Source of the DNA: Branchiostoma floridae | Taxonomy: Eukaryota > Chordata > Leptocardii > Amphioxiformes > Branchiostomatidae | DNA: 64,000 nucleotides | NCBI RefSeq assembly: GCF_000003815.2 | Contig: NC_049996.1 | Span: 11,020,806 to 11,084,805, forward strand | Direction of reading: 5' to 3' | Part shown: in pieces, positions 5,337-63,861 of the stretch | How positions within the stretch are numbered: position 1 is the first letter of the stretch | How the letters are laid out: the number at the start of each line of letters is the position of its first letter | Notes under the pieces: model-generated | What the model saw: the letters and a program-made list of their open reading frames with translations, nothing else | Databases searched by the model: none | Told to the model about the DNA's origin: nothing | Program-made: the position numbers and the translations under genes

Positions 5337-5784
5337 TTCACTGCGGCACTGCTGTGTTAATTTCGCCGATTTTGTCTTGCACTCACACTGACGTGCGGCA
5401 CTGTTGCGTTTCAAGCTCAGATGAGCCGGTTATCAAAAATCGCAGCGCTGTCAATTCATCAAAACACCACTGTAAATTGATAAAATCCATCTAAAATATT
5501 ATTCACAACGAAACTACATTCAATTATGACACTGGGTAACATGGATAACATATTATGAAGTATACCTATCACCTTGCTACAGTCTTTTAACAAAGGAACG
5601 GACCTGAACCATTTACCAGATTTTATGTCTTTTGCACCATACATGTGAAATAAAGCATTATTACATCTATATATTTATTGAAGAATTTTGTTCTGCCGTC
5701 ATGCTGACTTGTCGCGCATTTGCGTATGAATCCCGGGTCAAGAGGTCATCTCTCCCCATTCCGACTATTTTGTCATCTGTCAAG

Positions 5785-7317
5785 ATGGACGACGATCAGG
5801 CGGACGTCTTGAAGTCTGTCGTGTGTCTGCTTACTGTTGCCTCTGTTGCGAAGGCCAAGGCCAAAGCCAGGGCAAAGAAGGTCAGGAGAAAGAGGAAAAC
5901 TGTGTGGGTGCGACAATGGCTTCTGGACAGACCTAACTATGGTCTATATGACCAACTTATGGCCCAGCTCGCAGAGGGGGATGTCAAGTCCTTCATTAAC
6001 TTCATGCGGATGGAACCAGAGATGTTCTATAAGTTGGTGGAAGACCTGACACCCAAGATTAAGAAGAAGACAACCCGCTGGAGGGAGCCGCTGCCCCCTG
6101 CGCTCAGGCTGGCCGTCACTCTGAGGTATTTGGCCACTGGGGAGTCCTACCAGTCACTGGGGTACGCGTTCAGGGTGGCTCCCAACACGCTGGTCAGTAT
6201 GGTGCCCGAGGTCTGCCAGGCCATCTACGACCACTATCACGACATGGTCTTCAAGTGCCCCACAACGGAGGAGGAGTGGAAGGAGGTGGCCCAGGCTTTC
6301 TCCAACAAGTGGCACTTCCATCACTGCTGTGGGTGCATCGATGGGAAGCATGTGAGGATACAGGCACCAGCTCACTCCGGTAGCCTTTACCATAACTACA
6401 AAGGCTTTTCGTCTGTCATCATGCTGGCGGTGGTGGACGCCAACTACAGGTTCCTGTACGTGGACATGGGATCGTATGGCGCTGATTCCGACGCGGGGAT
6501 TTTCAGAGAGACTGGGTTGTATCAGGCTCTAGAGGAGGACAAGGCTTCCCTCCCAGGAAGTGAGCCTCTGCCTGATGGTGACGCTGCTGTCCCCTACTTC
6601 CTGGTTGGGGACGACGCCTTCCCACTCAGAAGCTGGCTGATGAAGCCACACTCGAAGAAAGAGCTGTCCCCCGAAGAGAGGATTTTCAACTACAGGTTGT
6701 GCAGGGCCCGTCGGATTGTGGAGAACGCCTTTGGTATCCTGGCCAATAGGTGTGTATCAACCAACCAATTAACTGATGTCATGATTTCTTGAGGACTTGG
6801 CAATTTGTGCAGAAATCTGAAGACACATTGACACTTGTTGAACAAATGATATAATAACGCGATGATGCACAATGTTCCTATGTCTTCTGGCCAATAGGTG
6901 TGTATCAACCAACCAATAAATGTAAGGATTTATTTTCGTCTTTCCAATTTTATGCACAAATGTGAAAGTCATATTGATACTTCTTCAACAAATGGTATAC
7001 TAACGCAATTAATGCACAATGTTCCTAGGTTCAGATGCTTTCACACCTGCATGATGCAGAAGCCCCACACTATCACCAAGATCGTGTTGGCAGCCTGCAC
7101 TCTGCACAACTTGCTGACTCCAACCAGAGCCGGAGAAGACCCAGTGGCACCCGACATGAGAGATGTCGAGAACCCCCTTCCTGGAATCCGAGTGGTGCCA
7201 TTCGGTCACAACACAGGCACGGCACTTGGGAAGAGAGTGAGAGAGTACCTGACTGAGTACTACAGTGGGGTAGGAGCTGTGCCGTGGCAGAATGCTATGG
7301 TGGGACTCCAGGACTAA
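5785..7317 (+). CDS. Harbinger DDE transposase (HARBI1-like), two exons
   Basis: Catalyses cut-and-paste transposition of the surrounding element in the nucleus. Exons are 5785-6749 and 7029-7317 (donor AATAG/GTGTGT, acceptor TTCCTAG/GTTC). The split AGG codon restores the family motif NRFRCF, giving 417 residues. The ATG at 5785 has a good context (CAAGATGG); the frame is open further upstream but with no better start. Residues 23-38 are very basic (nuclear localisation or DNA contact). The DDE_Tnp_4-type catalytic core runs from about residue 180 to 322: D186 in CIDGKH, D276 in VGDDAF and E313 in VENAFG are all present, so the active site looks intact. The length is slightly above that of vertebrate HARBI1. 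AATAAA signals at 7634 and 7729 follow the stop. The downstream partner gene converges on it with about 430 bp between stops. Confidence 0.93.
6741..7028 (+). repeat. Tandemly duplicated intron inside the transposase gene
   Basis: Two diverged copies of about 148 bp (6741-6888 and 6889-7036) each start with GGCCAATAG followed by GTGTGTATCAACCAACCAAT and end with AATGCACAATGTTCCTA or similar. The duplicated piece includes the last exon bases, so a second potential donor lies at 6898. The first copy's acceptor reads CTATG instead of CTAGG and is therefore dead. Confidence 0.8.
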
Positions 7318-7748: not shown

Positions 7749-10272
7749 TTACTCTGACTCTGAATGCTCCTGCTGAACTTTGGCCTCTACCCGTTCACCA
7801 CCTTGGGTTATTAGAGCTGAGGCTTGAGTCGCTCCTATCTCTGTTGCAATGGGCTTCACAACACCCAAACTGGTGTTCAACCCAAGATCCAAGGCTGAGC
7901 TGGTGACCGTTGTGAGCTGCGTGTAAACCCCACCATCCTCTCCACTCTGCTGCTGGAAGGCAGCAGGTGGCTTGAAGGTACCAAGTGGCTTGAAGGTACC
8001 AAGTGGCTGGAAGGTACCAGGTGGTTGGAAGGTACTAAGTGGTTGGAAGGTACTAGGTGGCTGGAAGGTACTAGGTGGCTGGAAGGTACTAGGTGGCTGG
8101 AAGGCTCCAGGTGACTGGAAGGCAGCAGGTGACTGGAAGGCAGCAGGTGACTGGAAGGCAGCAGGTGGCTGGATGGTACCAGGTGGCTGGATGGTACCAG
8201 GTGGCTGGAAGGTACCAGGTGGCTGGAAGGTACCAGGATGTAGTGTGAAGAATGCTGGCTGCTGCTTGTACTGACCACCATGCCCCTGTGAAGGATGTAA
8301 TGAAGTATTCATCAAAGTTAGAGTTAAAGAATATTTCAATCCTGTGGCCCATCTATTTATGTGTAAAGGTTTTATCCTACTATAGAAGAACATTGTACGT
8401 GGAATTTACCTTCTGATATGCTTGTCCTGAATTAGCCACGTCCTGACTGCTTGTGAACCTTCTGACCCCCTCCAACATGGAGAAGCTAAAGTCATGCCAG
8501 CTATGCTCGGGCACGCGGAGCATCTCTGTCTCCAGGTACCTGCTGAAGTCCCTGACCCTCTTCTCGTGATCACTCTTTGGTGGAGCCCTGATAGTGGACA
8601 TCAACTTCTTAGCCTCCTGCAGAATCTGAAGCACATAAAGAATCATGCAGGTGAAAAGAAAACGGAGGAGAATAAAGAAGAATAATGTTATGATGAATAT
8701 TTTCTTCCCACATACTTATTTTCAACATGAAATGTTTCTTTCATAATGCGTCTATTACCGTGTCTGTCACCTCCATATCGTCCTTGCCTTTTTTGTCTGT
8801 GGAAGGGGGTTGCTTTTTTTTTCTTTTTCACTGCATCTGCTTGGTGGTTGACTGCTCCTGACTGATAATGCCCTGCTCATTGTCTGCTGGGTCATGCTGA
8901 CTTTCCTGCAGGCTCTGCTCGTCATCATCATCATCATCATCACCAGCATCGTCGTCGTCGTCGTCGTTGTCATCATCGTATTCCTCATCCGTAGCATCAC
9001 CTGTAGTCTGTACTCCAGGAAACTTAGAAGAAAAGAAAAGTTGGAGGTCTTAGTAGCTAGCCTCTTTCAGAGACTTCGAGCAGTAGTTTTACCCGAAATA
9101 AAGCGAGCTTCGAGGCGGGGTAAAACTCCCTTTCCCGGCAAACTCACTTTCTCGGCAAACTCACTTTCTCGGCATAACAGAACCTAGCCAATGTTGAAAA
9201 TCGCGACCCAGTTCGCCCCCTCCCCCATAAAATAAAAGCCAGCCCCACTCGAAATCTGCGAACGAGGCTAGCTATTACGAGAAAGAAGAGCATTATTCAT
9301 TTTCGAAGAAAAATTGATGCATGTCGATATATCTTTCAAACATCAACCATTAACTATTTGTAGGTTCTCTACTTACTATGTGTGTTGCAGTTGTCCTTTT
9401 ACGTTGAATGTGTGGGCGAAGAAACCTGTACCGATCCATGATGAAGTGATCCTTATGGGACAGGATGGGGGCAGCTGCGCCTGACTTTCGCCTTAACAAC
9501 TTTCCAAACCTGGTCCTTGCGTTTCGAAAATGGGCAGTCACTTGGTCAACTGCAACATTTGATAGAATACGAAGAAAAACATGACATGATTTTCTGCAAT
9601 GATCAATGGGAAACACATAGATTATATGGAAACAGAGGAAATGTTCAGGGTTCCAAAACATAGTGTACCTTGCTAAAAAAAAGAATGATTATAATAGATA
9701 TGACAATAAAATGCTCGCGGAATAAATCAGATTGTAACGGAGAAAATCGCTAACGCTATGAGAACTGATATCATTCCTTGTCACCTTTATTTATAGTAAC
9801 TATCCTCTACAGTACTTTCGTACTCCTCACCTGTTGGCAGGGCGCTGTGGACCTTCTCCCACTCCTCACGATGTTGCTCAATCAGCTCCTGTATGAGCTG
9901 TACCTTCATGGCTTTGTTTTTGTAATTTTCCTGGGTCTTGTCGTAGAAGATGGGATTTTGTAGCCAAAACTCAGCCAGTTCATCTTCTTGGGTAGGATTC
10001 CAAGGGTACTGAGCTCTCCTAACAACTGTCTCCTTGGGTCGGGAGCCACTGGAAACCTCTGTCGCAGCATTTGGTCGCTCTTTCTCTGTAGGGGGAGGGG
10101 GGGCAGAAACAGCAGCCCGACGGCCTCTCCCCCTGCCCCTTTTCTGACCGTTGGGTGGGACGGTAGAACTAGCCACGTCACCAGAAGTACCTTCGACTAT
10201 CTCTGCAGAATTAGGGACGGGGTTAGCGAGCCCCCCACCCCTACCCTTTCCTTTTTTGCCCTTGGGTGGCAT
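7749..10272 (-). CDS. Harbinger partner: MADF/Myb-like DNA-binding protein, five exons, one in-frame stop
   Basis: In Harbinger elements the second protein binds the ends and helps import the transposase. Exons on the minus strand are 10272-9831, 9549-9377, 9022-8759, 8625-8410 and 8285-7749. All junctions are GT/AG with matching phases, giving 543 codons plus stop. The start ATG at 10272 has A at -3. Residues 1-55 are rich in K, R and G (KKGKGRGGG, KRGRGRGRR). Residues 95-170 form a MADF-like helix domain (W-rich start, FYDKTQENYKNK, then FRNARTRFGKLLRRK). Residues 214-234 are almost all acidic (DDD runs). Residues 295-350 resemble a BESS-type helical region. Residues 375-480 are about seventeen six-residue P/Q repeats (GTFQPP type). 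Odd: codon 270 is TGA (8828-8830), just before a basic KRKKK stretch, while both flanks stay in frame. It is either a nonsense mutation or an exon I have mis-modelled. Confidence 0.82.
7967..8238 (-). repeat. 18-bp coding tandem repeat in the partner gene
   Basis: About seventeen copies of an 18-bp unit encode six-residue repeats such as GTFQPP, STFQPP, GTIQPP and AAFQSP. The repeat is open in several frames on both strands, so the other long frames over it are shadows. Confidence 0.9.
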
Positions 10273-10527
10273 GGTACTACAGTACGTGACAAGGTCAAGA
10301 AAGGAGCGCACCCTGAATGTCACATGTCGTATCCAATCAGATGCAAGATAAGATTTGTGAAAATCCCAATATTTTCAACAAATGAAAAAAAGCTACAAAA
10401 TGATTGAAAATGCATCCAAAATAGATTTTTAGTGATAAGATGATGTTTACTCTCAATACTTGCCAAAAAATCAGTAATATATCATGAAATTTACCTATAA
10501 CCTTGAAACTGTTGCTAGCATATGGTG

Positions 10528-10648
10528 GCGGCACTGTTGCGGCACTGTTGCGGCACTGTTGCGGCACTGTTGCGGCACTGTTGCGGCACTGTTGCGGCAC
10601 TGTTGCGGCACTGTTGCGGCACTGTTGCGGCACTGTTGCGGCATCTTG
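10528..10648 (+). repeat. 11-bp subterminal array, ten exact copies
   Basis: GCGGCACTGTT is repeated exactly ten times from 10528 to 10637, then one degenerate copy (GCGGCATCTTG). The same GCGGCAC core sits inside the terminal repeats and near the left end. An 11-bp period is close to one helical turn. Confidence 0.95.
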
Positions 10649-10683
10649 CCACTTGCGTTATTTTTAAACTTTTTAAAAAACGT

Positions 10684-10770
10684 CGCGCTTGCTTGCGGCA
10701 CTTCTGCGCTTGCTTGCGGCACTTCTGCGCTTGCTTGCGGCACCTCTAGGTCTGCTTGCGGCACCTCTGC
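10684..10770 (+). repeat. 21-bp subterminal array, four copies
   Basis: Four tandem copies of a 21-bp unit containing TGCTTGCGGCACTTCTGCG. The last two are diverged (CCTCTAGG, CCTCTGCG). The period equals two helical turns. The array adjoins the right terminal repeat. Confidence 0.9.
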
Positions 10771-10775
10771 GTTTT

Positions 10776-10825
10776 CGAACGCAGCAATGCCGCAAGCGTG
10801 CCGCACGTCAAGTGAGAGGGGGCCT
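10776..10825 (-). repeat. Right terminal inverted repeat of the Harbinger element
   Basis: 50 bp with no mismatch to the left terminal repeat when reverse-complemented. It is followed directly by the TTA duplication. Confidence 0.95.
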
Positions 10826-10860
10826 TTACGCACCCGTCAGTGAAAAACCTAAAGAGGGTT

Positions 10861-12617: not shown

Positions 12618-13079
12618 CTATTTACAAGAGTTGACCCATTCTGTGATTCTGCACTCCTCGCAGATGACGTAGCAACACCAGTGGAATTTGCAGTTGCACC
12701 TCTCCACTCTAGTCTGTCTGAATATGTTAAACCCCCGTCCGCAGCACAGGGCCGCACAGCTGTCTGGCCCCGTGCTCGTTTTGTTGCAGATGCGTCCTCT
12801 CGTCCCCGGAGTCTCCAGCTCCCTGTTCCTATCACAGAAGTCCGGCGACCTGTCGAAGTAGACCAGGTCTGTGGCGAAGGGAGGGCGGTTGGCGTAGATC
12901 GTCTCTAGCCTCCCGTAGTTGTCGTTGCTGACTTTGATCTGCGTGGCGTAGTCGAATCTCTCCTTCAGGATGACGCCGACCTCGCGGAAGTCCGGCGTGG
13001 CCTTCCAGCAGGTCTTCAGGTTGCAGCTGCCGGACATCCCGTGGCACTTGCACCGCCTCTGCATGTTGGTGGACACGGC
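12618..13079 (-). CDS. Wnt10: Wnt10 coding exon 4 (C-terminal half)
   Basis: 462 nt including the stop, acceptor CCCCCTCAG/GCC. Encodes residues 238-390 with [37 protein letters not shown] and the terminal cysteine finger. Confidence 0.97.
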
Positions 13080-16000
13080 CTGAGGGGGAACACAACAGTG
13101 TGATTCAATCAGCCAGCTCTCAAAAAACTGTTAGCAGTCAAATAGCAATTACACAAACAACTAGCCTCGGTACCATCCTGGTAGCAGTTCGCTCCTATGT
13201 TCGCTTCTGCTGTCAGAGCGAGAAGCGACCACTGTTTATATAGTGTATAATGAAGGAATGAGCGAACTACTTTCCGGATGGTACCCAGGCTATCAAGCAA
13301 CTGGGTGATTTTGGAAACGGTCAGACGTTAATTTGGAAACGGTCAGACGTTTCAGGTAGAATCCACTACCTTCAGTCATCAGTGACACTGCGCAGTTAGC
13401 AGCATTATCACATCTATAATTCTATCCCAACCCCAATCATTCAGTCATACACTCTGTTTACAGGTAGTATCTATCTATGGGCTACTTGAAGTTGTTACCA
13501 GGATAAGAAGACCCCAAGTGCGCTGTGTTATAGATGTAAAATCAGTACCCACAGCTTGATCCTAGGTCAAAAGCACAAAGTATATCTTCCTCTGAATTAT
13601 ACTTAGCGAGCTCTTATCCCAGACTTCTCCGAATTAAGGCTTATTTTTCCATCTGTATTTTGTGATCTATGACCCTTAAAGGAAGTAGGAAGTGCCAAAT
13701 AGTTTTAAGCCCAAAAAACAGAAGTACCGGAGAGCCCTGATGAGGGAACCGGGTCTACGCTCATGGACCATGCCACTCTGCGATGGACCCGTAAGGATCT
13801 GACTCAAGATAATCAAGATATGCTGTGCACATTAATGCAACATTCCTTTTGTTACACCAATGGTAGCACCATTTCTTGGTGGTTCTGCCAAGCCACACCT
13901 TATTTTGTCCTGCCTCCGTCACTTTTCCAGTAGCTCAACGGAAAACCCATTCTTTCATAGACGTTTTCCCCGATTTACCAGTGTAGGCAGCTAGAGTACA
14001 AGGTCCCACCTGGCCCGCCGTTACATGTGTAACCTCCTGACACTTGACGGAAGCTGTGTGAAATGGATAGACAAATGTTGCTCTACTGAGTACCCCCGTG
14101 ACCGGGTGATGTAAGAGAGAGGGAGAGGGAGAGAGCTGATGACATAACCACCCTCCTCCGCACCCATCATTGCCAAGCCCACCCAGATTTCCGACCATGA
14201 ATTATCCGGATTAAACACATGGCAGCAACCAACTTTCGTCACTTGTAACCCCATAAATCGGCTTGTAGTTGCACTTGACATACAAAACTATTGTAAGGTC
14301 TGAAATCAAAGGTATACAGTAGTTGATATGTTTTGACTGTTGAAAGCAACTGAGAGTACTTGTTGTAGGCAGACGTAGGTACCAAAACTATAAACATACT
14401 TTAAAAGTTTAATCAAATAAAAAAGCTACCGATAAGTATTATGATTTCAGTGACCTATTCGCTTAGAACAGGGACTGTCTCTAGCTAGGTTGTTATTCTG
14501 AGCTAAAGACTTCATTCTCAGAATCAAACGATATTGCTTAAAAGTTAAACATATCTGCTTGTGATTTGGAAAGATTAAAGAGGTGGGGGATCTACTGCTC
14601 ATATTATTGAATCCGTGTGGTCTAAATCCAGGTCGGGGTCTGGATGTCAGCTGCCCCCCACCGGTTCACCTGGTCCCGCAGGCTCTGTCCTTGAGCCAGA
14701 ATTAACACGCAGCCGTCAAATCCTGTCATCCGAGACAGGTGGGCTGTTATATTGCAAGAAACGACTTGAGAGTCGTCTTGCTCTGGGGGTGGACCGGCAA
14801 GATTCGCAGTGGGGATGTTGGCATGGATGTCATCCTGGTTAGGCTATCAATTAACCTGTGCTGCGATTATCGTCGCTTTGAAAGACATTCGCGAAACGAC
14901 TTTATCTCATTTCAACTGAATCGCAGCAATGACTTCCAAGAATACAAAGAAGAGAGGCATGTCTGCCTCGCCCCTCTTCATTGTTGTTAGTTGGACTAAA
15001 ACTGTAGATGCCCCGCCCCACCGTAGCGTGTCACAATAAAGGGAAAAGTTCATTTGGAGCCTTTTGTAGACATCGATGTTTTCAGATTCTCAGCAACACA
15101 AGCCCGTCGTGTTTTGTCTTCTAGAAATAGCGTGCCCATTTACTTATTACAGTCGCGCTGCCCGCTGTCACAGGAGCACCTCTCGGCTGATCTGTAGGGG
15201 AAGTCTGCGAGAATCAAACCCTGCACCGACGGCCAAATACGCTGCGGAATGCGCGATGGTCCCGAGCACTTGCCGTGATACGTCTTGCGGTAATTCTTCT
15301 AGTCAGTCGGGCTCCACCAGGGGTTCGTCGTTTTCGGGAGGGTACATTTATCAATGGGAAAACAGAGACCAGTCAGTAGACAAAGCATTTTCTGAGTATA
15401 AAAGAAACAACTATGTAAATGAGATGGTGACAAACCGATCCACTTGATGTTGAAAATGGCGAAAGGTGTGGCAGTATACTGTCCAAGCAGAGCTTCGGCT
15501 TCGGCTGTTTTGGACCTGTTGGAAGTGTTTTTTGTCGTTTTTATTTCGTACAATTTTCTTTATGCCCACTGCTTGGAGAGTACTGGCAGTAAGGGAGAAC
15601 GAACTCTGTTGTGAACTGCTGTTGTTATATCCACAAATAGAACTCTCTTGTACTTGTGAGCTACTGTTGCCATATCCACAAATAGTCATGATCCCACAGA
15701 AGTATACATTTTGCCAAACACTGGAACATGTTTTCTATAATCCTCAATTCCAACCAAGCTACATTTTCAAAAGAGCTTCACCTGAAATGCTTGCTTCTGT
15801 AACACCAGCAGTACTGGAAACTTCAGAGTGTTTGGTCTAGATGATGCAATCGTGGCATTAAAGAGAGGGGCACTCGTTTTCTGAAAGAAGGCTTCAGTAT
15901 GTGATGTCCTTAGTACAAATCGTATGGTCGCCCAGTATCAGGACATGTTGTATGACGCAACTGTTGTAAATCTTTGGATATGACGTTAAAATTAGTTCTT

Positions 16001-19900: not shown

Positions 19901-22900
19901 GCTTTGACATGACTTGACTTGACTTGACTTGCCGTCCTTTTTTTAAATAAGGAAGCTAAACCCGAGTCTCAAGGTGAGAATCAATGTTCTTTCACTGGCC
20001 AACGCTTTCCTGTAAATATTATTGCGAAAGATGCTAGCAGATATCGAAAACATTATATTACTTATGACATCCCAGCATTACCACCACCCGCCATAGTGTG
20101 TTGAGATATTGAAAGTATTAACAAGTCTTAAGTGTTTCTAAGTTTTAGAAATCCTTACACCACTTGTAGTGATAACCCAAGCCATGTATGAACTGTCAGT
20201 GCATCTCAGCACGTCTGTCCTATCGACTACACCAGCATCTGCAGCCATCGCGTGACTCCCTCAACAAGGTGGTGACAATGAGGTCCGAACATACCATCCC
20301 CCATGGCCTGCCGGGCGGGATATCAGTGATTCGATCGCGTGTAGCTTTAGTTCTCATTTGTGCTACAGCTTGTACGCTCGCGAACCCGTAACTCTTCAAA
20401 TTTCCGCTCCTGGGATGGATGTGTGTCTGGGCTTGACCGCTGTAATCTCTTCCAGGGACGGGAGTTCCTCAACATGGGCCTCGCGACGAGGGTCAACTGT
20501 TAACAGCGAAAACTGCCTATGTTGGACTTCCCTATACAACCATGACATTGGACAAATGTTCAACATGTGTTAACCCAACACGACCACGATTTCTGGACAA
20601 GATAACGATAGAAATCTTTAGCTGATACAAACTTGCTTGTAACACGCTTCAACAGATGATGTGCTTCAGAATGGAGGGATTGAAAACTGTTCCTTTTCAT
20701 TCGAGCATAGAATGCAAAATATCGGTCATATTTACAACAGTCTGCCATGTCTTTTTGCTGAGCTATTTGATGGGTCACCCTTTTNNNNNNNNNNNNNNNN
20801 NNNNNNNNNNNNNNNNNNNNNNNNNNNNNNNNNNNNNNNNNNNNNNNNNNNNNNNNNNNNNNNNNNNNNNNNNNNNNNNNNNNNNNNNNNNNNNNNNNNN
20901 NACATTTGGAAAAACAAACTCGCCACAACCGTTATGGTGTAATGTTGTCCAGGCCTATGGACAAGGTCGCTTACCACAAGGCCAGGCACTCGTGCCAGGT
21001 GTTGGAAGAACCTGCTAGTATCCTCTTACTGTTGTACACCACAGTAAGAATTGTCAATCTGATTTGTCGGTAGAAATTCGTGCCAAGTAGCCGTAAACAT
21101 CACCTGGTGTCGGCCTTGTATCTGTGATACCATCGCCGTGTACCTGGACATGTGTCTGTGCCGAGCAACACATGTCCGTAACCTGGTAACCGCACGTCTG
21201 GGGTCTGATTAAGGATGGACACGTTCGGACAAATTAGTGTCCTCTAAGTTGGTCACTTCTAGAGGATCATTCGATGCAGGGCTATGGGTTTGGTGCGTAT
21301 GATAGGGCTTCCTCTCAATGAAATGGGGCATCCCTTCTCCACACGCCATTGCAGCAACTAATACGCGTAAAACATCTGAATCATGTTCATCAATACAGGT
21401 TTTAAGAATGTCCAGGTGGTAGTACCGAAGTGTAAACTAGAACGATTTGTTGTGAAAATTTTGCAAAACCTTGCATTGATGCTCTGGATCTAACCCTTCA
21501 AACATTGGCTTTAAGGCTACCCCAAACGTTGCTTAGGCTTTGGTGTACTGAATTGTATCTATCCTCTGTCTCGCTGTTGGGTGTCCGGCTACCCCCGGTC
21601 AACTTAAGAGAGGAAATAGATAAGAGATGACACGAAGCTGTAGGGGATTACCAAGTCATTAATGCCGGGAACGTCTTCAATAGTTATATTTTGTCTAGAA
21701 GGAATGGAGGTATGTCTGGTTCTAGTTGTAGACTATCTAGGCTATTAGTGAAGACTATGTAAGATGACGTAAAGTGCCTTCGATTATGAACACATATACC
21801 ATGGTGACCTTTAATATTCTATACTTGTCCATAATAACAGTGTATGTTATGCATATGGTATCAGGTCTTGTCTGAAATACGGAATACAGAATGTGATGGG
21901 AGATGACACGAAACCATTGGAGAAAATTAAAACACATATTCTTACAGTGTCGTCTTCAATAAACAACATACATTTGAACCTTATAGAAGATGACAGAAAG
22001 CTCTTCAAGATGGGCGACTCATTAACGTATATCAAAGACACTTGAAGTGATCATATCGAACGCCTGGTATTCGCTCTGTTCCATCCACAGTTGATGCATC
22101 ATGACATAAAAATGTCTTGACGATGATGAGGTCACAACTTAGTGCCAACAACGCCCAGAATCTATTCCAATGGCTTCAGACCTGCTGACATTTCAGTGCA
22201 GCTGGGCAACTGATGTTGTAGATGTCTAATGGCAAAGGTATTGGAAAATACATCGTAATTATCCAATTAAAGGCATATTCTGTTCCAATAACATAAAGGT
22301 ACACAACAGCACCTTCTAAGGTACGAAACAGTTGGATAGGTAATGGAATTATAAAGGTTGATTCTATATCTAACACGGATCTCTTTGTAAATAAATTGAA
22401 GATGACACACTTCCTATTAAATGACGATGAAATCTTGATTATCTATAAACACAAAAGGCCGTCGTCCTGACGACTGATTCTGATGGATTCCGAGGTTACA
22501 CTCGGCATTTTTCAATGGAAGTTAGATTCGTGACAGCCAAAACATTGAGTAAGGTGAAGGTCCTCGGAGAGACAACTGTCCTGTTCCCTTAGGTTATTGT
22601 ATTAAAACTGTTGGGCGTCATCCCTAAGTGAGCTTTGGTTTTAATGAGAAACAGGTAAAACAAGATCATTGTTTTCCTTTGGTCGTAAATCTGTTTATAT
22701 GAGGAACATCCTTCAAAGACAGATTTGGTTAAATGACTGTTAGACTTGAGATTCTTGTTCAGTTACTGATGAAGGACAACGATGTGGTCTGCAAGGTCTG
22801 TCGGTCTGACCGTAAACAAAATTATCTCATTAACTGGATATTTAACCTTAATCAGCGTATCCTTGGAGCTGAGCATATTCGCTTTTGTATGTGGGGCATT

Positions 22901-28900: not shown

Positions 28901-31900
28901 AATTTCCCTAGTAAAAGATTTATGTACGTGTCGTGTGTCGTCATTGATACGTTTATCTCTCCACTATAAACCGTTGGAATACCAGACCAGTCTGTGTCCT
29001 CAACAGACAACACAACACGGTTTAGGTCTATCCTGGACCCCGGACGTTTCGTTACCAAGCTGAATAGCTGATACAGCAATGTTTTAAAGGCACCCTGGGT
29101 AGTAGATAGTTTCGCCAAGGAGGTTGCGTTTTTGGTAGTGTCTGTATGTCATGTCCTGTATGCCATGCTCTATCAAAGAAATGATATTTTAGAGCCCCCT
29201 GGAGGCTTTCCTTATTGTTACAGCAGAACTTTTGGTTTTGATATCTCGTATTCTATGCAACCTATGCTCAGGATTTTTAAGTAATAGATAGCTCCTGTGC
29301 TAGGAATTAAAGAAGTAACGTAACTGGGCCCTTGAGTTTAGTCATCTTTTGAATGATAACTTAAATCAAAAAGGTTGAAAAGAGGAATCTCTTAAATGTA
29401 CCTTTCAGGACAACACATTAAGAACAACAATCAACGGCTGAAACACACAACAACCTTGGGTGGTCCCTTAAAACGACGTCTAATGCCTCTCTAAGCAATA
29501 TGTATCGACTACTACTTACACCATTTTCACAGTGGCTAACTCTAAAACCTTCTTCCATAGCATTTAATACCTGAACACTTTTTAAGCAACCACCATAGCA
29601 AGTTCAAAGTCATCTTAATTCTTCTTTTTTCCATGGAGAATTTCTTCCCTTCGTTTTAAGTACGTCCATCTAGTATGAGGTGCAGAGCGGGATTTTCCCG
29701 ACCTGGTAATGAACGTGTCTCTATTTACCTTCCATTAGCGAGCAGCCGACTTGAAAGCCTGCTTTGCCTCTTTAATGAGGCAGAAAGACGAAGGTTTTGA
29801 CCTGCACTTTCCCAGAGTCGTGCCCAGACTAGTCTGCCTTACCCTGCCAGTCGTCTTAGCAGTCATTAAGGCCCACTTATTTCCAATGACCACCACTCCT
29901 TTAACCACCCTTGTAAACCGGGCTTGATAGCCCAATCGCTGCATGTTTGGGAGTGCTTGTTCACAGGGCGGAAGCGTGTTATGTAACGAGGCTTTCAGTT
30001 CTTGTGGAAGTTTTTCACTGTTACAACGATGGCGAAGAGCGAAAAATATCACCCTTGATTCATTTTCGCTGACATTGACATCATTTGCCTTTTTTCTGTT
30101 AATTATATATAAACTTCGATCCTTCCCAAAATGTGGAAATTAGTATGATGCCGTCATAGTCTACTCACCCAGGTGTATTATAGGAATGGTGGAAAATCTA
30201 GTAGATAGATGGTCTAAGACTATAAAGCGTAAGAGGATGGATACTAGAGTAATACATCAACTTCATCAAGTAATAGATAAGACTCTCCTCATCCTCAAAC
30301 ATCGAACCCACTTTACCACTGAACCTCACACTCAAAGTTTAATATCGGATACATAAATCTTATTTCCACTTACCAGCCGGCCTGCTCTGTTGTTATGAAG
30401 TCTCATTCTCGAGAAGATGTCCACCGAAGTCTCGCGAGAGTCCAGGAAATCCTTGGAAAACTTGATGCCGTATTCAATGTTGTGGCTACAACCTCCCCAC
30501 GACCAATCGTTGTACGACTTGCCGCCGCCACTGTTCGTGTGCAGGACCGCCGTCTGTCCCTGCGTGTACCCCGGAGGGTAGCCTGGGATCGGGCCGCCGG
30601 GGATGGCCCCCGGGAATGAACTGGGGGAGTAGGTAGGAATCTGAGGCTTGGTGGGGTAGTCATTGTCACAGCCGCACGTGTGCAGCTTACCCAGGCTACA
30701 GGCGTTGGCCACGGCGTGAGCCACTCCCGCGGATACCGACGCAAAGGTGAAGGCAGTCTCCCGGATACCTGCGGCAGGAAAAAAGAAAAACAAACTGTTT
30801 CAGTACAAAGTTGACGTTTAAATGCTCTAACTTAGTCTAAAACTTGAAAGGTATTTGCAGCTTATACATAGCCATCGCTTCCACCATGTTGGTGGACAGA
30901 GTAGATCCAAGATGGCTGCCCGTCATTCGGCAGGTACAGACAATGACCGAAAGAAAGGAATTGGTGCTGTCTGAATACACAAAAGTAAAAGTCAACATTT
31001 TGTTTCAATGTTTCGTGCAAAATGACATGGCGGACATTAGCATACGAGTATAAGTTATATTTTGACCGTAAACTCTCTTTGTATATGTTTTAGTTTCATA
31101 TACATTTTCTTATACCTAATGTCACATTCTACATATTCTGGCAGGAAAAATAACCATAGTTTAATAATTTACGACAAGTTTTAGATGGAAGACTTGAAAC
31201 ATTAATGTTGACAAGAGGTGCACTGCGCACGCCCTAAGGCATGCCGGGAGTTCGAAGCTGCATTCTTTCCAAGATGGCGGACTTCAGTGATTGTGACAGA
31301 GCGGTGGACTGATCAAAGCTGGGCCGTTATCGCGCGAACCATCTGGTCCGACCTTGTCCCTCTGCTGTTTTTGGTCCGAGATAAAATTGTCGTTTCGGAC
31401 AAGGGGATAGATTTATCATGGCGATGTTGAAAGGGATTCTGTGTGAGTGTGAGTGACGGGTCAGACTGGTCAGAGTCGGGGAAATTAAGCTCCCATCTGG
31501 CAATGCCTGTCTTGTGAAGTACCCAGTCCAAACAGGAAGTCCAAAGAAGGCATTTACGATAAGTTTTGTAACTTAATTATTGGAACATATGCGCTTACAA
31601 CAAACATGCTCAAACTCAATGTGAATACTCACGGTCAAAAGTTTCATTTCACAAGGTGAATGGGATTGTTGTGAAAACAGCAAACTTGTTTCAAAGGTCA
31701 TACAACTCAAGGACATATTGAGTTTCTTCAGCTGAAAATAAAACCGCCCTTGTCACAAGTTTTTTTTCAAGGAATTTTCTTTTCAACTCTATGGTCCTTC
31801 GATTTTCACGCTCAGCCTGCACATGAAAATCCGTCCTTTCAATGCAGCATTCGAACTGAATTTGCCCAGTCAGACCGTGAGCGGTGTAACAGGTGTATCC

Positions 31901-59295: not shown

Positions 59296-61435
59296 CGTAC
59301 GTCCGTTATGAATAAGACGAGATACTTCAATCAACCATGATTGTTAAGGAAATACTCAAGGTATGCATGCAGTATGTGTTCTGGATCCTGCGCCTGCAAG
59401 CATATTGTTTTGATCTCACTTGAAAGGAAGCGGAATAACAAATATTTGGGGGCATAACTATAAACTGCAAGGTGATGTATAAGTGTTCACCAAATTTCAG
59501 TCATTGTCGCCATTTTCTTTCGCATGAAGTCGAGGAAAATGTCTAAACTTCTGTCTTGCTACCCACCCACCCAATAAACATTACGACCTTCCGATCCACC
59601 ATCTGTTTGGCTTTTAGGGACGATCAGTGTAAACAAAAGTAAAGCTGATTTTCGGCATTAAGTTTCCCATGGAGTCAGACTATACGGTGTTAATCAAAAG
59701 TTCCATTTGTGCACAGTTGGATTGCTTAATTGTGGAGGACTAACCAAAGACTACGTACCGCTGGCATTTGTGAATCGTACATCCTTTTTAATTGATAACC
59801 ATTGACATACATACAGAATACAGTAACTGTTGTGATTTTCCCTCTCCAGAAGACATTGATAAAATCATATAATTTTATTCTACATATAATTTCAGTTATA
59901 TCATGTTAGTATTGCAATTTCGATGTACTTGTATCGTAAAAGGATATTATGTATTGGCTATCCCTAAGTTGCTATGATTTGTATTGACGGTTAATTATAC
60001 GCGTCAATGTCAATTCTCTCATGTTATGAAACTTCTTATTTTATTTGATATATATGTAGATGTATGTCTGGGGTTACCCCCCAGGGCACATTGAAAAGCG
60101 CCTAGAAAAGGCGATATGTTACCCCTGGTAAAATAAACAAAACAAACAAACAAACAAACTAGTATACAGTAATCAGAAAATGATTCAAGCTATGATATTT
60201 TGTCTAGATTTTTTTTTTCTAAAAATGGTGTTCAAGCAATTTCGTGTAGACTAATCATACTGTCATGTGGCCCACATGTCCTATCGACAGTTCATCATTT
60301 TCCTAAAACTTTCTAAATCTATTAAGCCATTATGTACAGTTTTCAAGTTTGGTTCGAGTGGGTAAAAGTAAAGTAAGTAATATCATTTAGTCGCTACAAC
60401 AAGGTGGAATTAAACCTTCTTACCTTTAATTTTGTTTTCCATTCAACATACAGTATTACTTTTTTTATTCAGGAACTCCAGTTTCAAACAGAATCCCACA
60501 TCCAAACGATATACTTTCATTTGGATCTTTCAACAAACACACGTGAAACCGTAACGTTAATGTATTCTACCGGTACATACAAAACTAAATACCACATCAC
60601 TGTTTCTATCGTTAACCTCACCTTCCTTTCCAGGCGCGTCTTAAGTAAAAGTATTGAGTATTCATAAAGGAAATAGTCACGTTTGGCAAAGAGACACACC
60701 ATTGTTCACAGTCAACGAAAGATAGGCTATGTCAAGAAGGAAGCAGACAAGACAGCTAGGTCAAAGTTTTTAAAAAAAAACAATAGTTTCATTGAACAGA
60801 AGAAAGGAAACGTCACGCACTGAAGAACAGTCTATGTCATTTATGCTGTAATTGGGTCCGCTTTACCTTGTAAAGGCAACGTTGCAAAGGAATGCCATGT
60901 TCTATGTCACGTTGGGTCTGCCCGTGGTGCTGAATGTCCCCGATGAATGTTGAGCAGCTCAAATCGTGACCGTCCGTATGTTGTTTCCTGTACTCGGCTC
61001 CTGCCTGTACAAATACCTAAATTAGCGCTATACACATGTAGCTGTCTGTCATTGTGATTTACGCCAGGCGAGTTACCTTCGCTCCTTCCCTCTGGACGTT
61101 TCGGTCTTCCAAAGTGTTTTTGTGCTGAACCTTTAGATACCCAATGTGCGATAGCCTAATATGTGCATTGGCTCACAAATCCCTCTCTGTCTCTGTAGAA
61201 GTTCTAGTCCTTTTGGTGGTTACTATATGATGTCTAAATGTAATGCTTCTTTCATACATTGCAAATATAGGGCAGCCTTTGTGGTGCACTGGTACCTTTC
61301 CTCCGAAATCCTATGTCAGATCTGGTAGTCCTGCATTGTCGCTTTATGAGTATATTCACTGTAATGCACGATATGTGCCTGCAGATATGACAGTTAGTGA
61401 CATTTACATGCTGGTGTGATTGTTGTTTGCGAATC
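59296..61435. other. Intergenic region between two convergent genes
   Basis: Holds the probable reductase poly(A) signal (AATAAA at 59573) and a retroelement-like tail at 60060-60160. No gene is recognised. Confidence 0.6.
60060..60160 (+). repeat. Retroelement 3' tail with (CAAA)n
   Basis: TGGGGTTACCCCCCAGGGCA and GCGCCTAGAAAAGGCGATA (short hairpins) precede AAATAAACAAAACAAACAAAC. The structure resembles the 3' end of a non-LTR element or SINE. No coding part remains. Confidence 0.45.
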
Positions 61436-63205
61436 CTACAGTTCAACATACTCCGATACAGCTGGAACATCCATACCTTCTTCAATAGAGTAGATTTGGC
61501 TTGCTGTTGTTGCTGTAGCAGTTTCTGTTCCCCTTGTGAATGGAGAATGTCCGTCATCCAAAACGTCTTCAATAGAATAGATGTCGCTTGTTGCTGTAGG
61601 TGTCGTTTCCGTTTCATTGTCCAAATCTTCTTCAATGGAGTATATGTCGTTTGTTGCTGTAGGTATAGTTTGTGTTTCGTTGTCCGAATCTTCTTCAATT
61701 GAGTAGATATCGTTTGTTGTTGTAGGTATAGTTTGTGTTCCATTGTTCAAATCTTCATCAATGGAATAAATGTTGTTTGTTGTTGTAGGTGCTGTTTCTT
61801 CTCCGTTGTCCAAATCTTCTTCAATTGAGTAGATGTTGTTTGATGTTGTAGGTGAGGGTTCTGTTCCATTGTTCAGATTTTCTTCAATGACGTAGACGTG
61901 ATTTCTTAGTGATGGAGTTGTTTCTGTTCCACCTATAACTGTAGAATATCCGCCATCCAAGTCCTGTTCAATAGAATAGAAGTGGTTTGCTGTAGTGTCT
62001 GTTCCATTCACGACTGCCTCATCCAAACATTCAGGGTTGTCGTAAATGTGGTTTACTGTTGGTGGTGTAGTTTGATTGACAGGCTGGTGTCCGTGAGTGA
62101 CAGCTCCTGCATGGGTGTAAGCTTTGTTACTGTAGAACCGTCTGAGCTGACGCACAAGAGCTGAGTGGCGATCTGCACCCATGTTCACATCTTTGCGACA
62201 ATTGCAGCACAGCTTGTGCTTAATGGTAAATCCGATGACGCAGAGTACGACAGTCAAAGCCAGAAGTGTTCCCATCACGGTGATGGGGATGTAAAGAACT
62301 GAAAGTTTGTCGTCGTTTTCGTGTTTCGTTGTTGGCGTGGAGTTAAGATCAGACATTTGCATGGTCTGTGCAGAGCCTGTCGGTATGATGGAAATAGTCT
62401 CAGTCTGATTCTCATGATGAGTTTTAGTCTCAGTCTTCTCTGTAAGAAACATGGTAGAAGTCACGGCCATTGCTGTAGGTTTTGTGTCTGTGGTCGGCCG
62501 CTGTGCTCCACAGCCCGTTAGTTTGGTAGACACGAGCGGGTTGGACAAGTGCAACTTATTCAGCTCACGCGGACTGGAGCAGACATGAGCGCCCAACTTT
62601 AGGCTTCTGTTGAGAAAACAAGCTGAAAAGCGCGAACAACAGTCCTGTCGATCTTTTCCTTCACAGGCCTGCAAATACGCCATCTTGACAATCAGCCAGG
62701 AAAGCTCACAGTCACAGTGAAATGGGTTATCGTTGATGAGCGCACGGGTCACTTGTGGCTGCCCCAGGTCGTACTCAGAGAACGACGCCAGTTTGTTGAA
62801 ACGGAGGTCAACTGTTCTCAGCTTCGGGAGATGCTCAATGACGGTATTTAGCTTCACGTACCGAAGTCGGTTTGCCATGAGATACAGAGATTTCAAATTT
62901 GGCAGAGTACGCAAAGACATCCAGGAAAAAGATTCTATGCAGTTGTTATTTAGGTCCAATGTACGTAGCCTCGGTAGTGGTGGAAGGTACACAATGTTTG
63001 TGATGTTACATGAATAGGACAAGGTAAAGCTTTCAGCATTGGCAGGGATGTCGTCAGGAATGGCCGTAAGGTTTGTCCTGTAACACTGAACCATTGATGT
63101 TCTGACGTATGACCAATAGTCTATGCTACACGTAGCCGGCAGACAAGCACACTCTGACCACAGACGTGTCAAAGTAAGCAGCAAAAGCAGTCCACTTACT
63201 TTCAT
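61436..63205 (-). CDS. Leucine-rich-repeat transmembrane receptor with tandem tyrosine motifs
   Basis: A single-exon type I membrane protein of 589 residues; ligand unknown. I chose the ATG at 63205 because a signal peptide follows directly (MKVSGLLLLLTLTRLW); another in-frame ATG lies at 63232, and the frame further upstream opens only at TTG. Order: signal peptide 1-17, LRRNT-like cysteines (C19, C21, C26), three clear LRRs (LRTLDLNNNCI, LKSLYLMANRL, LRTVDLRFNKL), a cysteine-rich LRRCT (160-232), a Thr-rich stalk, and a membrane segment at about 303-326 followed by KHKLCCNCRK. The cytoplasmic tail has Y388 in IYDNPE, then IYSIEEDL-type motifs at Y410, Y438, Y459, Y480, Y501, Y522, Y543 and Y572, five of the intervals being exactly 21 residues. 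It ends SEYVEL, an ITIM-like site. Probably a signalling receptor; function is inferred from architecture. Confidence 0.88.
   Translation of the reverse strand: MKVSGLLLLLTLTRLWSECACLPATCSIDYWSYVRTSMVQCYRTNLTAIPDDIPANAESFTLSYSCNITNIVYLPPLPRLRTLDLNNNCIESFSWMSLRTLPNLKSLYLMANRLRYVKLNTVIEHLPKLRTVDLRFNKLASFSEYDLGQPQVTRALINDNPFHCDCELSWLIVKMAYLQACEGKDRQDCCSRFSACFLNRSLKLGAHVCSSPRELNKLHLSNPLVSTKLTGCGAQRPTTDTKPTAMAVTSTMFLTEKTETKTHHENQTETISIIPTGSAQTMQMSDLNSTPTTKHENDDKLSVLYIPITVMGTLLALTVVLCVIGFTIKHKLCCNCRKDVNMGADRHSALVRQLRRFYSNKAYTHAGAVTHGHQPVNQTTPPTVNHIYDNPECLDEAVVNGTDTTANHFYSIEQDLDGGYSTVIGGTETTPSLRNHVYVIEENLNNGTEPSPTTSNNIYSIEEDLDNGEETAPTTTNNIYSIDEDLNNGTQTIPTTTNDIYSIEEDSDNETQTIPTATNDIYSIEEDLDNETETTPTATSDIYSIEDVLDDGHSPFTRGTETATATTASQIYSIEEGMDVPAVSEYVEL
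61480..61900 (-). repeat. 63-bp coding tandem repeat
   Basis: Encodes the 21-residue tyrosine repeats of the LRR receptor tail (core IYSIEEDLDN plus a Thr-rich linker). The DNA copies are similar but diverged, and the Tyr-Ser-Ile-Glu core is the best kept part. Confidence 0.85.
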
Positions 63206-63861
63206 GTCTGTACCAGTTGTCCACAATACCATCTTTAAGAGAGGGACAAACGCCAATAATTGGTCCAATGCTCAGATATATATTCGTAAATTTCCAGTTA
63301 GCGCGCGCCGCCTTGAAAAGCAGGTTGTTGTGCGATATTTAGGGGAACTGGTCGTTTTCTCTTTTGTCTTCAGTATATATCTTAGCGTCATGTATATGTA
63401 TCATACATGTTGTACGCATGTCTGTCGTGCTCACGACGGTGCCTCATGCATGACTAATCATATATCCCTCGCTGTTGACTAGAGACTGACTTCCCTCACG
63501 TATTGCAATCACAGAATCAATCTGGAAATCTCCTGTTTTGAAACATCTACTTAGACAAAAAAGTAAGAGAAGGACATTGCATGTGTCTGCTTCTCTACCC
63601 ATGCACAGTTTGGGAGACGCATTAGACTCGTCGGGCGTTGGTTTAGAGCCATATTCAATACATTTTTATTATTCCGAGTCTGGTAATGTTTTGATCATCA
63701 AACGCTCTTTATTAACGCACATGTATAGATACTCCTGTTAGATATTGTTTTATTTTTTGTATACACCTTTGCAAGGCAACGACCCGTCAGTCGACCTCTT
63801 TTACTCAAGCATTTACTACCTTTGTAGAGAGGGTTACAAAGCAGACATCAACGAATACTGT
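63206..63861. other. Upstream region of the LRR receptor
   Basis: Probably contains the 5' UTR and promoter of the minus-strand receptor gene. No TATA box or other decisive motif was found, and no further gene is seen. Confidence 0.4.

Follow-up and report, generated by a model that had tools for sequence, protein, structure and literature searches.

The question raised by this locus is whether the tail of a leucine-rich repeat (LRR) receptor, in which one short tyrosine motif recurs at regular intervals, serves as a docking surface for signalling proteins or is a by-product of tandem duplication. The window, i.e. the whole 64-kb stretch of DNA that was analysed, contains an intact animal gene encoding a small LRR cell-surface receptor whose predicted inner tail repeats a single tyrosine motif eight times (Table 1). 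The open reading frame (ORF) has only the terminal stop in its own frame, against 25 and 36 in the two remaining frames of that strand, and encodes the complete receptor without any intron. An earlier note had begun the protein at 63205, where an in-frame methionine (Met10) does open a leucine-rich, signal-like sequence, but the frame is already open from Met1 at 63232. No paralogue of the receptor gene lies within the window, and an overlapping ORF in another frame (61252-61743, minus strand) matches no Pfam family at E 0.01. A pattern search of prokaryote genome contigs for relatives returned 13 matches, none of them a relative, as expected for an animal gene.

Table 1. Features of the receptor gene and of the protein it encodes, in protein order after the gene-level features; positions are those of the window.
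Feature	Position	Strand	Basis or remark
Complete CDS, 598 aa	61436..63232	(-)	Met1 at 63232, alternative Met10 at 63205
TATA-like AT run, candidate core promoter	63276..63284	(-)	5' of start codon; by eye
CATAAA, candidate variant poly(A) signal, weak	61343..61348	(-)	~90 nt past stop
Signal peptide-like stretch, residues 10-27 (MKVSGLLLLLTLTRLWSE)	63152..63205	(-)	By eye from sequence
LRRNT-like Cys cluster, residues 28-50	63083..63151	(-)	Cys 28, 30, 35, 50
Leucine-rich repeats, about residues 70-154	62771..63025	(-)	Pfam LRR_4, LRR_8; PDB LRR proteins
LRRCT-like cap, residues 170-241, NPFHCDC...	62510..62725	(-)	Cys 173, 175, 190, 198, 199, 205, 218, 241
Hydrophobic (predicted transmembrane) helix, residues 312-337	62222..62299	(-)	Peak KD 2.51, then KHKLCCNCRK
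Tyrosine array, residues 389-598, IYDNPE included as one of nine units	61439..62068	(-)	Sequence
IYDNPE, Y397, single YxN site, first unit	62030..62047	(-)	Sequence
FYSIE, Y419, 28-aa unit	61967..61981	(-)	Sequence
VYVIE, Y447	61883..61897	(-)	Sequence
IYSIE, Y468	61820..61834	(-)	Sequence
IYSID, Y489	61757..61771	(-)	Sequence
IYSIE, Y510	61694..61708	(-)	Sequence
IYSIE, Y531	61631..61645	(-)	Sequence
IYSIE, Y552, 29-aa unit	61568..61582	(-)	Sequence
IYSIE, Y581	61481..61495	(-)	Sequence
C-terminal SEYVEL, Y595, ITIM-like / YxxL	61439..61456	(-)	Sequence

Elsewhere in the window, two minus-strand ORFs match the Wnt family, one at 12621-13130 (Pfam 1.4e-60, profile 151-305) and the other at 30335-30799 (7.7e-28, profile 60-153), and their profile order and strand are those expected if both were exons of a single Wnt gene extending over ~18 kb. 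A DDE_Tnp_4 transposase, which we take to be HARBI1-like, is represented at 5608-7314 (plus strand) by two adjacent, co-oriented ORFs, the first matching at 8.2e-26 and the second at 0.0012, which is under its cut-off. An ORF of short Pro/Phe-rich repeats (FQPPGTFQPP...) at 7752-8405 on the minus strand is open in more than one frame, a tandem repeat around CRNSAATVPQQ at 10340-10840 has open frames on both strands, and 20785-20901 is an assembly gap of 117 N.

The small LRR domain claimed for the protein was recovered, since Pfam LRR_4 (1.3e-10, 41.6 bits) and LRR_8 (2.4e-9, 37.2 bits) both exceed the curated cut-off of 27, as expected of an LRR transmembrane (LRR-TM) receptor; the remaining eight of ten Pfam families found at E up to 1 with the whole protein fall under their own cut-offs. 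The two caps are assigned from cysteine pattern and alignments, with no Pfam LRRNT or LRRCT match in the 598-aa protein: an alignment with PDB 7wrq begins at residue 30, within the LRRNT-like cluster, and the NP-x-x-CDC of the LRRCT-like cap lines up with the point where the cap begins in known LRR proteins among the PDB sequences. When the whole protein was searched against PDB sequences, 219 distinct sequences were found at E up to 1, with LRRC4B leading the 60 listed (6.7e-17), and with residues 24-262 as query the top matches were a TIR-domain protein (2.5e-18) and IGF-ALS (3.5e-18). The ectodomain is therefore read as a generic small LRR fold, its closest family not being fixed by the PDB matches. 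A single-sequence AlphaFold2 model of residues 24-262 was unusable (mean pLDDT 32.9).

In the layout of the ORF a stalk follows the LRR domain and leads to the hydrophobic helix, the sole region of the protein with a 19-residue KD of at least 1.6; the signal peptide-like region has no 19-residue window at KD 1.6 and the tail from residue 346 reaches a maximum of 0.28. The 20 residues past the helix include five K/R and two D/E. A tail outside the cell had been named as a finding that would overturn the earlier proposal, but the single helix with its K/R-rich inner flank predicts a cytoplasmic tail, provided that the N-terminal signal peptide is real. N-glycosylation sequons in the tail number six against a shuffle mean of 4.72 and thus give no pointer to an outside location. 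By domain content and hydropathy, the protein looks like a type I LRR-TM receptor.

The tail comprises 261 aa with 13 tyrosines, of which three (Y367, Y372 and Y429) belong to none of the motifs, and the array itself is acidic, with 45 D/E and two K/R in 210 residues. The earlier description of eight [IVF]Y[SV]IE motifs stands as to number, but only seven of the eight end in Glu, Y489 lying in IYSID. The intervals between motif tyrosines from Y419 to Y581 are 28, 21, 21, 21, 21, 21 and 29, so that the five intervals of exactly 21 residues described before are confirmed between Y447 and Y552, and both IYDNPE and the terminal SEYVEL are present in the tail as had been noted. The latter may also be a class II PDZ ligand. 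A search of the window in all six frames gave nine matches to [IVF]Y[SV]I[ED], eight of them in the array.

The array bears clear marks of tandem duplication. Tandem Repeats Finder (TRF) detected a 63-bp period (6.0 copies, score 393, 61557-61931), and the central units 468, 489, 510 and 531 are the most alike, with 50-54 of 63 bases identical. A 126-bp period (2.7 copies, 61550-61889) was also detected and its score of 435 is higher than that of the 63-bp period, hinting at duplication of unit pairs. The two long units, 419 and 552, have a common segment in the same place, identical at 25 of 33 bases, which was equalled in none of 2000 shuffles. Because the short units contain equivalents of part of this segment (GGAACAGAAAC), the 21-nt insert was compared alone and was identical at 14 of 21 positions, a value that one of 20000 shuffles reached and that ranked first against 579 in-frame placements elsewhere in the CDS, ahead of 11/21 for the runner-up. 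As the two long outer units carry a common insert, a deletion is the probable origin of the 21-aa unit; in the simplest history the longer unit is ancestral, with a shorter form that lost about seven codons being subsequently amplified mid-array, possibly as by unequal crossing over. The exact 21-residue spacing is therefore inherited through tandem duplication and is by itself no evidence of selected spacing or function.

The duplication history invites the explanation that the whole array is a passive, minisatellite-like expansion in a disordered acidic tail, with tyrosines that have no signalling role; a 63-bp tandem array in which the central units are most alike and the outer units unequal in length is what such a process could leave behind. 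It is nevertheless unlikely, given that the motif columns look constrained and the flanks much less so, despite a synonymous divergence (pS) of 0.46. Over the 17 columns shared by the eight motif units (counted without the IYDNPE unit), pN/pS is 0.20 in columns -1 to +4 against 0.73 in the other 11, a comparison between copies inside one gene that are non-independent through shared history, that gene conversion could keep alike and whose motif columns were picked after their conservation had been noticed. Among 12376 six-column sets, pN is as low as in the motif block in 53 and the pN/pS contrast as strong in 215. In the six 21-codon units, pN is 0.116 and pS 0.544 in columns -1 to +4, compared with 0.284 and 0.381 elsewhere.

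At the level of residues, Tyr, Ile at +2 and an acid at +3 are present in all eight units (Glu in seven), position -1 is always I, V or F, Ser at +1 is found in 7/8, and Asn at -3, Glu at +4 and Leu at +6 in 6/8 each; beyond the motif block, Thr at -6 (7/8) and Pro at -7 (6/8) are also well kept. Both Tyr codons are in use among the eight units, and the Ile+2 codon is ATT in every one, with no synonymous change in that column. In neutral simulations on a star tree, which assumes independent copies and was applied to the same picked columns, Tyr was retained 8/8 in 0.34% of 5000 runs at d=0.3 (pS 0.44, close to the observed 0.46), and Tyr, Ile+2, acid+3 and [IVF]-1 were jointly kept in none of 5000; at the lowest divergence simulated, d=0.05 (pS 0.11, far under that observed), the four-position motif was kept in 3.9%. 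These data suggest that the motif has been maintained by selection and that the spacers have been free to drift. That the motif is held while synonymous sites diverge, and that the long outer units have an insert in common, is new beyond the earlier note.

What the motif could bind was addressed by scanning the tail, and 2000 shuffled versions of it, with a set of motif patterns; the preferences of Src, SHP2-C and Grb2 are also given in PMC10065799. The repeats proved to be neither classical ITIM nor ITAM sites, in line with the earlier note, with no match in the tail to the ITAM pattern YxxI/L-x6-12-YxxI/L and a single match to the ITIM-like [ILVS]xYxx[ILV], at SEYVEL and in none of the eight repeats. 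SEYVEL does fit the pattern of the ITIM-like end that had been proposed, but 831 of 2000 shuffles reach one match; ITIM membership for this receptor thus has one chance-level site behind it, and the ITAM class does not apply. Similarly, the suggested Grb2-type site at IYDNP does contain YxN, but the two YxN in the tail (Y367 and Y397) are at chance level, with 620/2000 shuffles reaching two, and the Asn+2 of Grb2-type sites is absent from the eight repeats. NPxY, PI3K, STAT3, Src-SH2, TRAF6 and di-Leu patterns have no match in the tail, and at or under chance are SHP2-type Y[AST].[ILV] (one, Y429), Crk-type Y..P (one, Y397), AP2 Y..Phi (two), LIR-like (three) and CK2 (eight) motifs. Above chance are [IVLF]Y..[ED] (eight against a mean of 0.40, reached in 0/2000 shuffled tails), N..Y (eight), [ND].Y[ST] (five) and [PSAT].[QE]E (four), for all of which the shuffles overstate significance because the enriched matches are largely copies of one unit. 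No SH2 or PTB pattern in the set matches the repeat over its full length.

Published specificities meet the repeats in part. At -1, bulky hydrophobic residues are reported to be strongly preferred by Lck (PMC5089863), and Ile, Leu or Val to be preferred by c-Src, which further favours Asp, Glu or Ser besides Gly at +1 and Phe at +3 (PMC10065799). With I/V/F at -1 in 8/8 and Ser at +1 in 7/8, the repeats would suit Src and Lck at these two positions, but not at +3. In the same study, Glu+3 is not among the preferences of the SH2 domains of Src or SHP2-C and the Grb2 SH2 prefers Asn+2 (PMC10065799), and a kinome-wide study of human tyrosine kinases from 2024 describes Glu at +3 as generally disfavoured (PMC11136658). 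The earlier suggestion of a multivalent docking platform gains from the apparent purifying constraint between copies, but published specificities speak against Glu+3.

On balance, and with somewhat better than even confidence, the protein is taken to be a type I LRR receptor in which the cytoplasmic tail acts as a multivalent docking array for phosphotyrosine readers; judged from sequence, docking at the eight-copy tail is probably controlled by phosphorylation. The small LRR domain would bind a ligand or partner, receptor clustering would recruit a Src-family kinase to phosphorylate the repeated N-x-(I/V/F)-Y-S-I-E-E-x-L-(D/N) units, and each phosphorylated unit would dock one and the same SH2 or PTB reader, so that signal output would scale with unit number. 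Of this scheme, the sequence shows the array, the LRR domain and a divergence between copies that agrees with selection for the motif; we infer topology (from hydropathy), phosphorylation, kinase class, reader and signalling direction, and the output of an array filled by a Src-family kinase may be inhibitory, phagocytic or adhesive.

The acidic residues after the tyrosine could be explained otherwise. The major TRAF2/3 consensus is [PSAT]-x-[QE]-E, and the S-I-E-E sites might cluster trimeric TRAFs, with the tyrosine as switch or bystander, which would account for Glu at both +3 and +4. The exact consensus is found in four of the eight units (Y468, Y510, Y531 and Y581), and 27/2000 shuffles contain as many (mean 0.96), but these matches are non-independent copies of one unit, the other four units deviate (VIEE at Y447, SIEQ at Y419, SIDE at Y489, SIED at Y552), and the consensus needs neither the invariant Tyr nor the invariant Ile+2, making a TRAF-type array improbable.

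The residues before the tyrosine raise an equally improbable reading, an NxxY-type array for the PTB or FERM-like domain of an endocytic or sorting adaptor, in which Asn-Asn, Asn-Asp or Asn-His would replace the Asn-Pro turn of NPxY. Asn at -3 is present in six of the eight motif units and in the IYDNPE unit too, and the eight N..Y in the tail, including a juxtamembrane one at Y372, compare with a shuffle mean of 1.16 (0/2000 as high). Yet NPxY itself is absent from the tail, a hydrophobic -5 residue is found at just two of the eight N..Y sites (Y372 and Y447), Ser takes the -3 position in the last two units, and conservation at +2 to +4 would be left unexplained.

In a further reading, attenuation through Cbl, the Cbl TKB domain would read the phosphorylated units and lead to ubiquitination and down-regulation, the TKB ligand motif being [ND]-x-pY-[ST]-x-x-P. 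The first part of this motif recurs in five of the eight units (shuffle mean 0.52, 0/2000 with five), but Pro+4 is missing from all eight, with Glu there in six, leaving no full match and making this reading very unlikely. More speculative than the phosphotyrosine docking array favoured here, and rather doubtful, is the reading in which N-x-(I/V/F)-Y-S-I-E-E-x-L-(D/N) would be a new tyrosine docking code, acidic at +3/+4, recognised by a lineage-specific SH2/PTB protein or by a phosphotyrosine reader together with TRAF, with copy number tuning the output of an innate LRR receptor.

The plan of the receptor is a familiar one, and the unusual, apparently maintained tandem motif is the new part. 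If phosphorylated and read, the array would provide a natural series of near-identical docking units and hence a tool for relating valency to receptor output. Furthermore, the conserved Glu+3 allows a direct check on whether phosphotyrosine (or TRAF) readers have a specificity that has so far gone unrecognised, and, if the favoured reading is true and the animal a lancelet, the receptor would give a view of ITIM/ITAM-like logic outside vertebrates.

Among the closest known systems are tandem phosphotyrosine scaffolds such as the YxxP array of p130Cas and the ITAMs of CD3-zeta, in which many copies of one tyrosine motif occupy a flexible segment; their motifs differ, the tail described here having one YxxP (Y397) and no ITAM, and being borne by an LRR receptor. 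Residues 365-598 alone matched PDB sequences at a best E of 0.07, to tropomyosin, which was read as a match of acidic composition, and Pfam TX13_rpt at residues 464-553 (E 0.043; 14.5 bits, cut-off 40.3) was dismissed. The peptide YSIEE was found in no paper of the open-licence literature searched, and no such array appeared in the titles or abstract starts among the listed matches to searches on amphioxus or Branchiostoma LRR, ITIM, ITAM, VLR, immune repertoire and TRAF2 motif. LRRC4/LRRC4B, LINGO1, LRIG1 and TPBG resemble the protein in their LRR, and LRRC4B also in the start of the C-terminal cap, but among the matches listed the likeness is restricted to the ectodomain.

Bf66946, a VLR-like protein of B. 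floridae (PDB 4xsq), has a small LRR domain with Cys caps, comparable to the layout predicted here, and aligns with residues 55-201 (E 3.1e-8), but it is one of many LRR matches, not the best, and is described as LRR-only (PMC4731796). VLR-like proteins are defined there as having LRR domains and no other domain, and 948 LRR-only gene models are counted in B. floridae (PMC4731796); the hydrophobic helix and the 261-aa tail with its tyrosine array rule out the VLR or VLR-like class for the present protein.

The nearest described system found is BbLcLRR, an LRR-TM receptor of Branchiostoma belcheri that is reported to associate with Lck and to be phosphorylated by it at several tail tyrosines, Y539, Y655 and Y690 being the major sites; it inhibits signalling driven by the TCR in Jurkat cells and associates with SHIP1 and, to a lesser degree, SHP1/2 (PMC8211107). 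Homologues of SLP76, GADS and Itk are also described from B. belcheri (PMC5431462), and Grb2 has been found with an LRR protein for which a GPI site is predicted (PMC10199209), so that, if the gene is a lancelet's, as the earlier note supposed, the machinery to phosphorylate such a tail exists. By its description, BbLcLRR (MW390887) matches the layout predicted here, with an LRR ectodomain and its caps, a single TM helix and a multi-tyrosine tail, but it has 699 aa and a WSC domain, for which the 598-aa protein has no Pfam match, and its three sites have Asp at -1 (DDYATV, HDYSEV and HDYDDP) where the array presented here has I, V or F (PMC8211107).
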